Shown here: piece by piece, positions 5,811-32,475 of the stretch | Numbering within the stretch: the stretch's first letter is position 1 | Layout of the letters: each line of letters opens with the position of its first letter | Notes under the pieces: generated by a model | What the model was told of the DNA's origin: nothing | The model's input: only the letters and a program-made list of their open reading frames with translations | Databases searched by the model: none | Assembly (NCBI RefSeq): GCF_025677645.1 | Contig: NZ_CP106879.1 | Span: 3,162,001-3,226,000, forward strand | Reading direction: 5' to 3' | Source: Curtobacterium poinsettiae | Lineage (GTDB): Bacteria > Actinomycetota > Actinomycetes > Actinomycetales > Microbacteriaceae | Length of the DNA: 64,000 bases | Made by a program: the position numbers and the translations under genes

Positions 5811-6617
5811 ATGACCGCGGCTCTCACCATCGCCTTCGTGCCGGGGGTCTCCCCCGCAAAGTGGGCCCGTGTCTGGCGGGAACGCTTCCCCTCCGTCGAG
5901 CTCCGGCTCCGGCCGATCGGCGCCGACGACGTCGACGACGCGCTGGCCGGCGAGGCCGACATGGTGTTCGCTCGCATGCCCGTGTCCGAGCAGCACAACG
6001 CCATCCCGCTCTGGACCGAGACGGCCGTCGTCGCGATGCCCAAGGACTCCCCCCTCGCCGAACTCGCCGAGGTCGACCTCGACGACGCCGAAGTCCACGT
6101 GATCGACGCCGGCCCGGTACCGGCCGACATCGACGGATCGCTCGACCTGGTCGAGGCGAACGTCGGCGTCGTCGTGCTCCCCCAGTCACTGTTCCGCGCC
6201 GCCAGCCGCAAGGACCTGGTGGGGCGTCCACTCATGCACGCCGAGGGCACGCGCATCGCGCTGGTCTGGCGGGACGAGGACGCGACCGAGACCACCGAGG
6301 AGTTCATCGGCGTGGTGCGCGGGCGGACCGCCAACAGTTCGCGCCAGCCGGGAGGCCCGGATCGCGACGGCGACGACGGCTCGCGTCCGGCTCGTGGCGG
6401 CGCCAAGGCCGGGTCGGGTGCCAAGGGTGCCTCGGCCGGGTCGGGTGGGTCGGGTTCCAGGGGCGGCTCCGCCGGGGCAGGCGGCAAGGCCAAGGCCAAG
6501 TCGCCCGGCAGCGGCAAGTCCGGCAGCGGCAAGAAGTCGAACACCGGCAAGGGCCCGACACCCGGACGCGGCAAGATGCGCGGCAAGCCGAGCCGGGGCT
6601 CCAAGGGCAACCGATGA
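5811..6617 (+). CDS. LysR-type substrate-binding-domain protein without DNA-binding domain, with a basic low-complexity tail
   Basis: 268 residues from the ATG at 5811 (an in-frame ATG at 5799 adds 4 residues). Residues 1-165 follow a LysR substrate-binding fold: TIAFVPGVSPAKWARVW, then DMVFARMPV, a central TAVVAMPKDSPLA and a late GVVVLPQSLFRAA. There is no helix-turn-helix, so it is not a normal LysR regulator. Residues about 175-268 are Gly/Ser/Lys/Arg-rich (KAKAKSPGSGKSGSGKKS), a disordered and highly basic tail that could bind nucleic acid or the membrane. The gene overlaps the following GNAT gene by 4 bases, so the two are translationally coupled. Confidence 0.75.
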   Translation: MTAALTIAFVPGVSPAKWARVWRERFPSVELRLRPIGADDVDDALAGEADMVFARMPVSEQHNAIPLWTETAVVAMPKDSPLAELAEVDLDDAEVHVIDAGPVPADIDGSLDLVEANVGVVVLPQSLFRAASRKDLVGRPLMHAEGTRIALVWRDEDATETTEEFIGVVRGRTANSSRQPGGPDRDGDDGSRPARGGAKAGSGAKGASAGSGGSGSRGGSAGAGGKAKAKSPGSGKSGSGKKSNTGKGPTPGRGKMRGKPSRGSKGNR

Positions 6618-7084
6618 CGGACACGCGGCTGGTCCTGATGCCGGCCACGCGCCTCCCGGCCTGGCTCCAGCGCACGATGGCCGAGTACGTCGAGTCGCGG
6701 ATGCAGTCGGGCGAGACCCGCGAGCAGGCCGAGGCGAACGAGCAGCAGTCGCGGGACCGGTGGTTCCCGGGCGGGTCTCCCGCTGACGGGCACCTCGTGT
6801 GGGACGTCACCGACCAGGACGACACCGTCATCGGGTACCTGTGGATCGGACCGTTCACACCGGGCGGCACCGATTGGTGGGTGTTCAACGTCGAGATCGA
6901 CGAGGCGCACCGGCGCCGCGGGCACGCACGTCGGGCGCTCGAGCTCGGGCACCGCGCCGCTGCGGAGCACGGTGCGACGAGCATCGGGCTGAACGTGTTC
7001 GGCTACAACACCGGGGCGCAGGAGCTCTACGCGGCGCTCGGGTACCAGGTGACGTCGGCGCAGATGCGCAAACCGCTGGTCTGA
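6614..7084 (+). CDS. GNAT family N-acetyltransferase
   Basis: 156 residues, starting inside the stop codon of the preceding gene (ATGA overlap). The acetyl-CoA loop is EIDEAHRRRGHARRAL and motif B is LNVFGYNTGAQELYAALGY, the pattern of single-domain small-molecule acetyltransferases. A charged N-terminal helical part (residues about 20-50) precedes the core. Translational coupling to the LysR-type substrate-binding protein suggests shared regulation, but no substrate is apparent. Confidence 0.85.
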   Translation: MTDTRLVLMPATRLPAWLQRTMAEYVESRMQSGETREQAEANEQQSRDRWFPGGSPADGHLVWDVTDQDDTVIGYLWIGPFTPGGTDWWVFNVEIDEAHRRRGHARRALELGHRAAAEHGATSIGLNVFGYNTGAQELYAALGYQVTSAQMRKPLV

Positions 7085-7312
7085 CGCAGGACGGCTGCGG
7101 CGGCGCGGGACGACTGCGGCGGCGCGGGTGCGTGCTGCGGCGGCGCGGGCCACCGCCCGGTCACAACACCCCGCGTGCATGGCCCCGAGCGGTCACGAAG
7201 TGTCGACTGGCCGCGCCCGGAACGACGTTTCGTGACCACTCGGCGGAGACCGGCGGGGATTCGTGACCGTCCGCAGGTCCGCGTCAGCGCAGGACGGCTG
7301 CGGCGGCGCGGG
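7085..7312. repeat. 25-bp direct repeats flanking a 62-bp palindromic element
   Basis: A 25-bp sequence beginning CGCAGGACGGCTGC occurs at 7085-7109 and identically at 7288-7312, the second copy being the 3' end of the DJ-1 gene. Its core CTGCGGCGGCGCGGG recurs at 7114 and 7135. Between the copies, 7185-7246 is a palindromic element: CCGAGCGGTCACGAA (7185-7199) pairs with TTCGTGACCACTCGG (7229-7243) with one mismatch. The same element occurs inside the tandem array at 26.9-27.7 kb. Confidence 0.75.
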
Positions 7313-7964
7313 TCACCTTCGCGCCGCGGGCTTCCTCGGCTGCTGCGCGAGCCCGGGTGACGACGACGGCGTCGGCGCGCTCGGCGGACCCGTTGTCGAA
7401 CGGTGGCCGGGGGTCGTACTCGATCTGCAGCTGGATCGCCTCGGCCGCGGGCTGTCCGGCGAGCTCGGCCGCGAGCCACAGCGCCATGTCGATGCCCGCG
7501 CTCACCCCGGCGGCGGTCACGACGGCGCCGTCCCGGGCGATCCGGCCGTCCGTCGGCTGCGCGCCGAAGGCCTCGAGCATCGGCTTCGACGCCCAGTGGG
7601 TGGTCGCGCGCCGGCCGGCGAGCAGCCCGGCGGCGCCGAGCACGAAGGCGCCCGTGCACACCGAGGTGACCCACGTCGCGTGCTCGGCCTGGCGCCGCAC
7701 GAAGGCCACGACGCCCGGGTCGAGCATCGCGTCGAAGGCACCGTCACCACCGGGCACCACGAGGACGTCCGCGGGGCCCGCATCCTCGATCGTCACGGTG
7801 GGGACGAGCGCGAGGCCGCAGTCGCTCGGCACCGGGTCGAGTGTCGCCGCGACGTACTCGACGTGTGCACCCGGCACCCGGCTGAGGACCTGCGCCGGAC
7901 CGGTCAGGTCGAGCTGGGTCAGGTGCGGGAACAGCAGGAACGCGATCCGGATGTCGTCGGCCAT
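7284..7964 (-). CDS. DJ-1/PfpI family protein (isonitrile-hydratase-like)
   Basis: 226 residues from the ATG at 7964. The N-terminus IAFLLFPHLTQLDLTGP and the nucleophile elbow SVCTGAFVLGAAGLLAGR with a central Cys (about residue 103), followed by ATTHW, are typical of the isonitrile-hydratase-like or AraC-N-terminal branch of the DJ-1/PfpI superfamily. No AraC DNA-binding domain follows, so it is a stand-alone enzyme-like protein. A cytosolic hydrolase, hydratase or stress role is likely. The C-terminus is Ala-rich (TRAAAAVLR) and lies inside the 25-bp repeat described nearby. Confidence 0.85.
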   Translation of the reverse strand: MADDIRIAFLLFPHLTQLDLTGPAQVLSRVPGAHVEYVAATLDPVPSDCGLALVPTVTIEDAGPADVLVVPGGDGAFDAMLDPGVVAFVRRQAEHATWVTSVCTGAFVLGAAGLLAGRRATTHWASKPMLEAFGAQPTDGRIARDGAVVTAAGVSAGIDMALWLAAELAGQPAAEAIQLQIEYDPRPPFDNGSAERADAVVVTRARAAAEEARGAKVTRAAAAVLR

Positions 7965-26858: not shown

Positions 26859-26899
26859 GGAGGCCCGGTGCCGGTCCGCGAGACCGGCACCGGGCCTCC
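26859..26899 (+). terminator. Hairpin terminator of the met operon
   Basis: Perfect 18-bp arms (GGAGGCCCGGTGCCGGTC and complement) with a 5-base loop, 32 bases after the metI stop. Confidence 0.8.
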
Positions 26900-26920: not shown

Positions 26921-27679
26921 GGACGCGCCCAGCGTCGTCCGCCGAGCGGTCACGACTCCCCGCTCACCTCCGCCGAGGTCACACGAACCGTCGCCCGACG
27001 CCCTCGCAACCGACAGTTCCCGACCACTCGACCCCGCGCACGCGGCATGTCGTCCCACCTCGGCACGAGCTACCGACGCGCCCGACGGCTCGCCGCCGAG
27101 CGGTCACGACTCCCCGCTCACCTCCGCCGAGGTCGCTTGAACTGTCGCCAGGCACCCCCGCAACCGACAGTTCCCGACCACTCAACGCCGCGCACGCGGC
27201 ATGTCGTGCAACCTCGGCACGAGCCGCCAACGCGCCCGACGGCCCGCTGCCGAGCGGTCACGACTCCCCACTCATCTCCGCCGAGGTCACACGAACCGTC
27301 GCCCGACACCCCTGCAACCGACAGTTCGTGACCACTCGATGCCGCGCACGCGGCATGTCGAGCAACCTCGGCACGAGCCGCCAACGCGCCCGACGGCCCG
27401 CTGCCGAGCGGTCACGACTCCCCGCTCACCTCCGCCGAGGTCGGACCAAGTGTCGGCCGGCGCCCCCGCAACCGACAGTTCGTGACCACTCGGCGGCACC
27501 CCCGCGGCACGTCGTGCGACCTCGGCACGCGCCGCCGACGCGCCCGACGGCCCCCTGCCGAGCGGTCACGACTCCCGCGCACCTCCGCCGAAGTCGCACG
27601 AGTCGTCGCCCTACGCCCCCGCAACCGACAGTTCGTGACCACTCGGCGGCACCCCCGCGGCACGTCGTGCGACCTCGGT
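26921..27679. repeat. Tandem array of a 154-bp unit, about 4.9 copies
   Basis: Copies of the start motif GCCGAGCGGTCACGAC lie at 26941, 27095, 27249, 27403 and 27557, each exactly 154 bp apart. A 20-bp piece of the unit end precedes the first, and the last copy stops at about 27679 after 123 bp. Each unit contains the palindromic element also seen alone at 7185-7246: CCGAGCGGTCACGA facing a TTCGTGACCACTCGG-like arm about 60 bases on, and a second part rich in CGCGCACGCGGCATGTCG. Since 154 is not a multiple of 3 and no frame is open across all units with normal composition, I regard the array as noncoding. It lies between the met operon and the converging EEP gene. Confidence 0.9.
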
Positions 27680-28485: not shown

Positions 28486-28618
28486 GCTGCCTTCCTGTCC
28501 GGGTGTTCCGGTCACCCTGCCGCGGTCACCGTACTCGGGTACCGCGGACGGTTGCTGAGACTGTAACGCCTGCCGGGTTTCGTCCGTGTGACCGTGACGG
28601 AAACGGACAGCGGCGGGA

Positions 28619-32333: not shown

Positions 32334-32475
32334 ATGCGTGTGCAGGAAGCGACAGCACACGCGTCGATCGACAGGTGGAACGTCGTTGCATGCACACGCA
32401 CCGGATGCGTGTGCATCGAGCGACCGGACACGAGTCGATCGACGCGCGGATCGTCGGAACATGCGCCCGCACGGA
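32334..32475. repeat. Tandem pair of a 71-bp palindromic element
   Basis: Two diverged copies start at 32334 and 32405 (each begins ATGCGTGTGCA). Shared blocks include AGCGAC, ACACG and the perfect palindrome GTCGATCGAC. The end of copy 1 and start of copy 2 form an 11-bp hairpin: ATGCACACGCA, loop CCGGA, TGCGTGTGCAT. It fills much of the 368-base gap upstream of the PNPOx-like gene. The rest of that gap (32130-32333) shows nothing recognisable apart from one GGAGGCCC motif. Confidence 0.8.

Follow-up and report, generated by a model that had tools for sequence, protein, structure and literature searches.

The question raised by this locus is what kind of element is represented by a 154-bp tandem array placed between two convergent genes of Curtobacterium poinsettiae. 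TRF defines the array on the plus strand at 26941-27678 of the window (the whole 64,000-nucleotide stretch that was analysed) with a period of 154, 4.8 copies, 88% matches and a score of 1077, which exceeds every other TRF row in the window. The runner-up is a 71-bp tandem repeat at 32334-32472 (2 copies, 77% match, score 173). The five unit starts listed in the earlier note (26941, 27095, 27249, 27403 and 27557) are exact. TRF, the arm map and the unit identities describe a tandem array of a four-armed element having four full units with pairwise identities of 84-91% and a fifth unit cut at its 3' end, one base short. A coding repeat read in a single frame is excluded by the period, 154 not being divisible by 3.

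The upstream flank is formed by an ABC transporter permease gene (PF00528, 26152-26826, plus strand), and convergent with it on the downstream side lies a gene of the endonuclease/exonuclease/phosphatase family (PF03372, 27709-28632, minus strand) with an uncertain start, the gene caller having begun at 28486. Between the permease stop codon and the array the sequence contains a strong terminator-like hairpin, GGAGGCCCGGTGCCGGTCC...GGCACCGGGCCTCC (26859-26899, plus strand). The PF03372 gene provides the anchor for the locus comparison and has a match in 65 of the 66 Curtobacterium genomes; from these 65 30 loci were examined and 16 intergenic regions were read. The terminator word GGAGGCCCGGT is present at 12 of 16 orthologous loci with a related word at the other four.

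The internal arrangement of the array is illustrated by the arm map of unit 3. Arm L1 (type A, CCGAGCGGTCACGAC, 27250-27264, plus strand) is the same word in all five units and is followed by arm L2 (type B, CCGAGGTCACACGAA, 27281-27295, plus strand), with the other half formed by arm R1 (type A, reverse complement TCGAGTGGTCACGAA, 27325-27339, minus strand) and arm R2 (type B, reverse complement CCGAGGTTGCTCGAC, 27357-27371, minus strand). Two arm words take turns along the array, one near CCGAGYGGTCACGAM for L1/R1 and the other near CCGAGGTYGCACGAM for L2/R2, both approximate as the units vary. In the clearest units the inner left arm reads CCGAGGTCRCACGAA whereas its nested partner is CCGAGTGGTCACGAA, a different word, so the unit is not the plain repeat of a 62-bp palindrome that had initially been described. 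The solo core reported elsewhere in the window is real at 7185-7243, but its outer arms at 7153-7167 and 7260-7274 had been missed. The complete solo element (7153-7274, minus strand, arm map) has its four arms at 7153-7167, 7185-7199, 7229-7243 and 7260-7274 and sits between convergent genes identified with Pfam and the gene caller as a GNAT acetyltransferase (6614-7084, plus strand) and a DJ-1/PfpI-family member (7284-7964, minus strand). Within the window TTCGTGACC occurs 6 times against 0.63 expected, a count reached by 0 of 100 shuffles, and a 14-base arm allowed 3 mismatches is not enriched (42 matches compared with 51.2 expected); the window enrichment is limited to near-exact arms.

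The full element is ∼123 bp long with four 15-bp arms, L1 and L2 being direct and R1 and R2 inverted, and the arm-to-arm spacing of 31/32-44-31/32 bp recurs across copies, in some of which an arm cannot be recognised. Each arm follows the 15-bp frame CCGAG-variable-CACGA, and by inspection the conserved positions are common to all four arms. The oriented consensus is approximately CCGAGCGGTCACGACaCCCCGCTCacgtCCG / CCGAGTGGTCACGAAC(C/T)GTCG / loop / CGAC(A/G)GTTCGTGACCACTCGGCG / GCGCGGcGtGTCGTGACCNCTCGGCG and was built on 27 of 32 elements, those at 1188043, 1464240, 2021668, 2128717 and 2059554 having been dropped as misaligned or as repeating an array. The GTCG and CGAC sequences flanking the loop are almost invariant. 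The outer arms L1 and R2, candidates for the terminal inverted repeats of a MITE, are inverted copies in most elements, with 264 of 405 positions matching over the 27 elements, and in the window array they differ in type. The spacers are also common to the copies as part of the ∼123-bp ancestor, which points to a common ancestral unit rather than to independently gathered sites. Three turns of DNA correspond to 31-32 bp, and the presence of the same motif in each of the like-oriented arms placed 31-32 bp apart fits a fixed helical spacing; the middle step of 44 bp does not correspond to an integral number of turns. The arm-plus-spacer module is itself found in tandem, as 4 copies at 31 bp in the relative G007 and, with the variant arm CCGAGGTTCCACGA, as 5 copies at 32 bp in G047. 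These runs were spotted by eye and later counted with exact words, and an automatic scan for the same 31/32-bp periodicity with a loosely defined arm found no such run in four loci.

A search of the core across the genome, one of the checks proposed for it, reveals a dispersed family. Exact copies of the 12-base arm GAGYGGTCACGA number 50 and are confined to C1, the larger contig, compared with 0 for the reversed control, and the whole array unit gives 70 matches at E<=1. Merging the exact arms with the unit matches at E<=1e-3 that fall within 1 kb leaves 38 sites, and two further sites located via relatives (C1:2059.5k and proB-proA at C1:1679k) bring the total to ∼40. The array in the window is an amplified member of this family, whose copies lie mostly just past gene ends. 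Other arrays are located at C1:2021286 (4 units, 175 bp), C1:2351.9k (5 units, 173-195 bp) and C1:2038581 (2 units, 228 bp), and the periods vary by site (154, 175, 173/195 and 228), taking in unrelated flank. Such site-specific periods, together with the variable unit number among relatives described below, would be produced by a passive, functionless tandem duplication via replication slippage at a GC-rich palindrome. This is very improbable as the full account, since it leaves unexplained why the family is dispersed, why the arm spacing is fixed and why the arms are near-identical at sites shared with a distant species.

The placement of the elements relative to genes was classed for 42 source-genome elements with a simple codon-based gene caller (one additional element had no locus): 18 are convergent, 15 tandem and 0 divergent, with 1 falling inside a weak gene call and another 8 lying at the edge of a locus. 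Thirty-three of the 34 classifiable elements are intergenic, and the 33 correspond to 31 sites as two sites were counted twice among the tandem ones. Finding 0 of 33 in divergent gaps has a P of about 5e-7 given the share of intergenic bases in the window, which is 30% convergent, 35% tandem and 35% divergent. When the species-genome collection was scanned with the inner-hairpin pattern, 46 stretches matched, belonging to Curtobacterium, Frigoribacterium, Agrococcus terreus, Luteimicrobium and one MAG, and the 38 elements classed in them are 17 convergent, 21 tandem and 0 divergent (P 0.004 on their own background, some records being from related strains); 7 elements at a locus edge were left unclassed and the MAG hit (L098), which sits inside a called gene, was left out of the counts. 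The neighbouring genes compared across genera include no family that is beside the element throughout, and the one four-gene run common to a Frigoribacterium and a Luteimicrobium locus has the element on opposite sides. No origin or terminus bias could be read from the first 6 kb of the contig, which have no long ORF or DnaA box, or from GC skew, which was uninformative with 19 samples.

A location beyond gene ends would suit a 3'-end RNA element, in which a transcribed hairpin terminates, stabilises or processes the messages of the preceding genes. Folding of single elements beats that of shuffles (z -2.2 to -5.8, 4 elements), and weak covariation is seen at three base pairs beside the inner arms in a set of 19 named Curtobacterium hairpins (27/5000 shuffles; 319/5000 for the same three pairs in the 27 source-genome elements). 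Several Frigoribacterium copies are near-perfect hairpins, which taken with the weak inner-pair covariation makes some hairpin constraint possible. Over all 11 inner pairs in 49 hairpins of four genera, covariation is not above within-genus shuffles (358/2000). The nested helix of the full element is not supported by covariation: in the 27 source-genome elements nested pairing is at shuffle level (76.2% compared with 76.4% of cells), two-sided changes are below shuffles (12 compared with 15.4), and RNAalifold retains just 7 pairs. Rfam has no match to the repeat, L2 and R1 of the window array are unlike each other, and the permease gene already has its separate strong hairpin downstream. The structured-RNA option of the earlier note is not favoured, given nested partners without covariation and the Rfam result, and a role for the repeat in the message is judged quite unlikely.

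Covariation is found at a different spacing from that expected of hairpin partners. From 562 raw hits, many in overlapping loci, 67 non-redundant Curtobacterium elements remain after removal at >80% identity; the set leaves aside loci L279 and later and non-Curtobacterium loci, was chosen with a profile built from the source genome, and includes related genomes with kinship uncorrected. The arms placed 76 bp apart (L1-R1 plus L2-R2) covary at variable positions 6-11 with a z of 4.05 (0/3000 shuffles), an interleaved pattern that was seen first and tested afterwards, and when the window-array site is removed the z is 3.36 (3/3000 shuffles). Adjacent arms covary weakly (z 2.38, 34/3000) and nested arms do not in the 67 elements (z -0.71). 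As adjacent arms covary too, the 76-bp signal may partly reflect homogenisation of the arms.

The range of the repeat is patchy. At least one exact arm is present in 63 of 66 Curtobacterium genomes, with 0-2 per strand for the reversed control, and the abundance is uneven, with 10-79 arms in 21 of the 66 genomes and 0-9 (median 3) in the other 45. Among 398 genomes of the family, plain enrichment outside the genus is seen in g35 (11, 13 and 30 arms in three genomes), which is Frigoribacterium, G357 and the F. endophyticum genome having their matches at identical places; g33 has 4-9 arms in four genomes with a control of 0, which may be a mild enrichment, and many other genera of the family have a background of a few arms. 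Luteimicrobium is outside the family in the NCBI taxonomy, and its copies, like those of Frigoribacterium, consist of the inner 58-60-bp pair only. The hairpin pattern is unmatched in viral contigs, and one array unit used as the query has no match in PLSDB plasmids or INPHARED phages.

This distribution, with at least 10 arms in 21 of 66 Curtobacterium genomes and carriers in Frigoribacterium, Agrococcus and Luteimicrobium, could have arisen from a non-autonomous mobile element (MITE- or REPIN-like) spread by a transposase that is now absent, the arms being terminal or subterminal transposase sites and the copies today decaying remnants with local tandem growth. A ∼123-bp ancestor common to the copies, spacers included, agrees with that history, and the missing nested covariation also fits the decay of a palindromic ancestor. 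At the Frigoribacterium site L084 the element is absent from 8 of 8 aligned relative loci, with a junction that is not clean; the left flank of L084 (685-762) contains a second ∼70-bp repeat, present on both strands and in many copies in at least 7 of 10 Frigoribacterium genomes. The check for REP-associated tyrosine transposases proposed earlier was run with Y1_Tnp and was negative in all 24 distinct carrier genomes, source genome included (25 genome entries, G357 being the genome of L081), with a positive control matching in 5 of 14 known genomes; mobilisation by a RAYT is rejected on this basis, which covers the Y1 family only. Target duplications of 3-9 bp at 20 solo copies show no excess over shuffled flanks, although old copies may have lost theirs. 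Further points against the mobile history are the 20 of 21 distinct sites that are common to close relatives, the viral, plasmid and phage collections without a match and the arms with 0-2 mismatches at sites common to the distant species G012, which oppose plain decay. A mobile origin of this kind is possible but rather unlikely; as an option of the earlier note it keeps the patchy range in its favour, and the site sharing and the lack of target duplication in solo copies give no sign of recent mobility.

Two other routes of mobilisation were considered and rejected. A DUF559-type nuclease was suggested by a 383-amino acid minus-strand ORF of the source genome, AbiEi/DUF559-like by eye, which lies between two elements at C1:81005-82087 and escapes codon-usage gene calling; the only PF04480 match in the genome is at C1:1098639, away from any copy. 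The elements do not appear to form the ends of a composite transposon at the G007 locus L209:2193-4719, where the 2.5 kb between two of them has no mobile gene recognisable by eye. This interval holds a large surface-protein-like ORF between the two repeats. In the source genome (G000) the same two sides are just 55 bp apart at C1:2398348-2398403, a gap that fits loss via recombination between the repeats in this one case.

Comparison with the close relatives G008 and G007 shows stable sites with variable unit numbers. The 24 loci compared correspond to 21 distinct sites, and G000 carries the repeat at 20 of these, some much diverged; at the exception, L194, the element is absent in G000 and in G008 lies between 28-bp direct repeats, one of which is kept in G000. 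At shared sites the unit number in the relative and in G000 is 6 compared with 1, 5 compared with 2 and 5 compared with 1. The window site has 5 units in G000, 3 in G008, 2 in G007 and 1 in G030, and paired arms are present there at 7 of the 30 loci examined (G003 being broken by a contig end). At G008 L165:5560-6720, presumed to be proB-proA, a composite tandem unit combines the element with a GGAGG...CCTCC terminator-like hairpin, and this joint unit has been amplified to 5 copies in G008 and 2 in G000.

Sites are also shared over a greater distance. Of 20 arm-bearing sites in the distant species G012, 7 are located in intergenic regions that also carry the repeat in G000 (6 matched by both flanks and 1 by one flank), where a rough estimate of the chance expectation is ∼0.6. 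The shared sites include the window site, at which G012 has its own array, and arms with 0-2 mismatches are present at sites common to both genomes. The other 13 G012 sites have no clear match in the partial set of G000 loci.

Several other species have, by eye, different palindromic repeats with a CCGAG-NNNN-CACGA-like frame at the window site, and from such single intergenic regions it appears that other species may carry their own versions. In 100-kb samples of the low-copy species G022, G031, G047 and G005, the terminator word GGGAGGC ranks high in every sample and no word resembling an arm was recognised. A paired-arm filter gave 2, 1, 4 and 6 hits compared with 1, 4, 0 and 2 for the control, and this filter is insensitive, giving 2 compared with 2 in 91 kb of G000 that does hold elements. 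The samples give no sign that such versions are abundant, a weak negative. In Frigoribacterium a palindrome, CACCCCGGAGTGGACGATGCACC...GGTGCATCGTCCACTCCGGGGTG, is found at intergenic positions occupied in F. endophyticum by the F1 element, with the exact arm word at L311, L315, L321 and L330 and by eye at L317 and L333. Its GAGTGG-ACGAT arm is approximately the F1 arm minus two short deletions. A palindromic family distinct from F1 occupies the sites of two F1 elements in several Frigoribacterium relatives.

With no Y1 transposase found in the carriers and no target duplication at the solo copies, the best reading is of REP/BIME-like phased double-stranded sites that grow by local tandem duplication. 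The array is thus interpreted, at a probability of roughly one in two, as a locally amplified member of a REP/BIME-like dispersed repeat made of helically phased, double-stranded putative protein sites. A single protein, of the host or of the element, would bind the arms as double-stranded sites and might assemble a nucleoprotein structure beyond gene ends. The dispersed copies are probably old, with slippage or unequal recombination likely building the tandem arrays. The nearest working analogue is the gyrase-binding BIME arrays at 3' ends in Escherichia coli, where BIMEs are bound by gyrase or IHF. Of the three options first put forward for the locus (a mobile element, a DNA-binding array and a structured RNA), the DNA-binding array fits best, its binding protein being putative. 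The accompanying guess of a REP/BIME- or MITE-like element agrees in layout, placement, genome-wide copy number and patchy distribution and fails on the tyrosine transposase.

Comparison with known repeats places the family close to BIME/REP, with differences. The palindromes of ∼120 bp such as ERIC/IRU are comparable in length, intergenic and near-palindromic; by description, the four-arm repeated sites and the tandem arrays set the Curtobacterium repeat apart from them. Like iteron-like arrays, the repeat has direct repeats at about three helical turns with one conserved arm profile. It differs from these in being present at ∼40 sites with inverted halves and is probably not tied to one replication origin. 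BIME/REP sequences of enterobacteria and Pseudomonas are short palindromic units that are dispersed and tandem, are downstream of coding regions and in some families are species-specific (PMC3733652, PMC2817692), and REPs are mainly between unidirectional and convergent genes (PMC3733652). The Curtobacterium repeat is likewise dispersed and tandem and is found beyond gene ends in tandem and convergent gene gaps. It is unlike BIME/REP in its 32-44-32 arm spacing, in having ∼40 sites compared with the usual >100 copies, in the 24 carriers without Y1_Tnp and in arms that covary at 76 bp rather than as hairpin partners. REP/BIME sequences with a RAYT have a 20-40-bp hairpin and an unpaired GTAG tag, whereas the Curtobacterium consensus reads without GTAG and has four 15-bp arms.

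The closest precedent for the missing transposase is the CGTC-tagged REPs, which apparently have no dedicated transposase and are described with 8-9-bp stems, 4-5-bp loops, a terminal CGTC tag and a CCA tail (PMC3733652). A REP lacking a RAYT is therefore not new in itself. The invariant GTCG/CGAC of the inner Curtobacterium element resembles this tag but is internal, beside the loop, and the Curtobacterium consensus, as read, does not follow the stem, loop and tail plan. A literature search found no paper on the repeat, subscription journals being mostly outside its coverage. That the family is a new class of dispersed repeat without a RAYT is a rather doubtful proposal; in this class the interleaved inverted pairs L1-R1 and L2-R2 (76 bp each, offset by three helical turns) would be read by a putative architectural protein, and the specificity word CCGAG-NNNN-CACGA would change between lineages, so that species differ at the same 3'-end intergenic sites.

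REP-like repeats are often put down to a RAYT transposase, with CGTC REPs already an exception. The repeat described here is an Actinomycetota REP-like family that has a regular four-site build, no Y1 transposase detectable in 24 carriers and arrays whose length differs from one close species to another. Two questions become testable, namely what disperses and maintains such repeats when a RAYT is lacking and whether proteins dock on them or they act as hairpins, and the variable arrays could serve as strain-typing loci.
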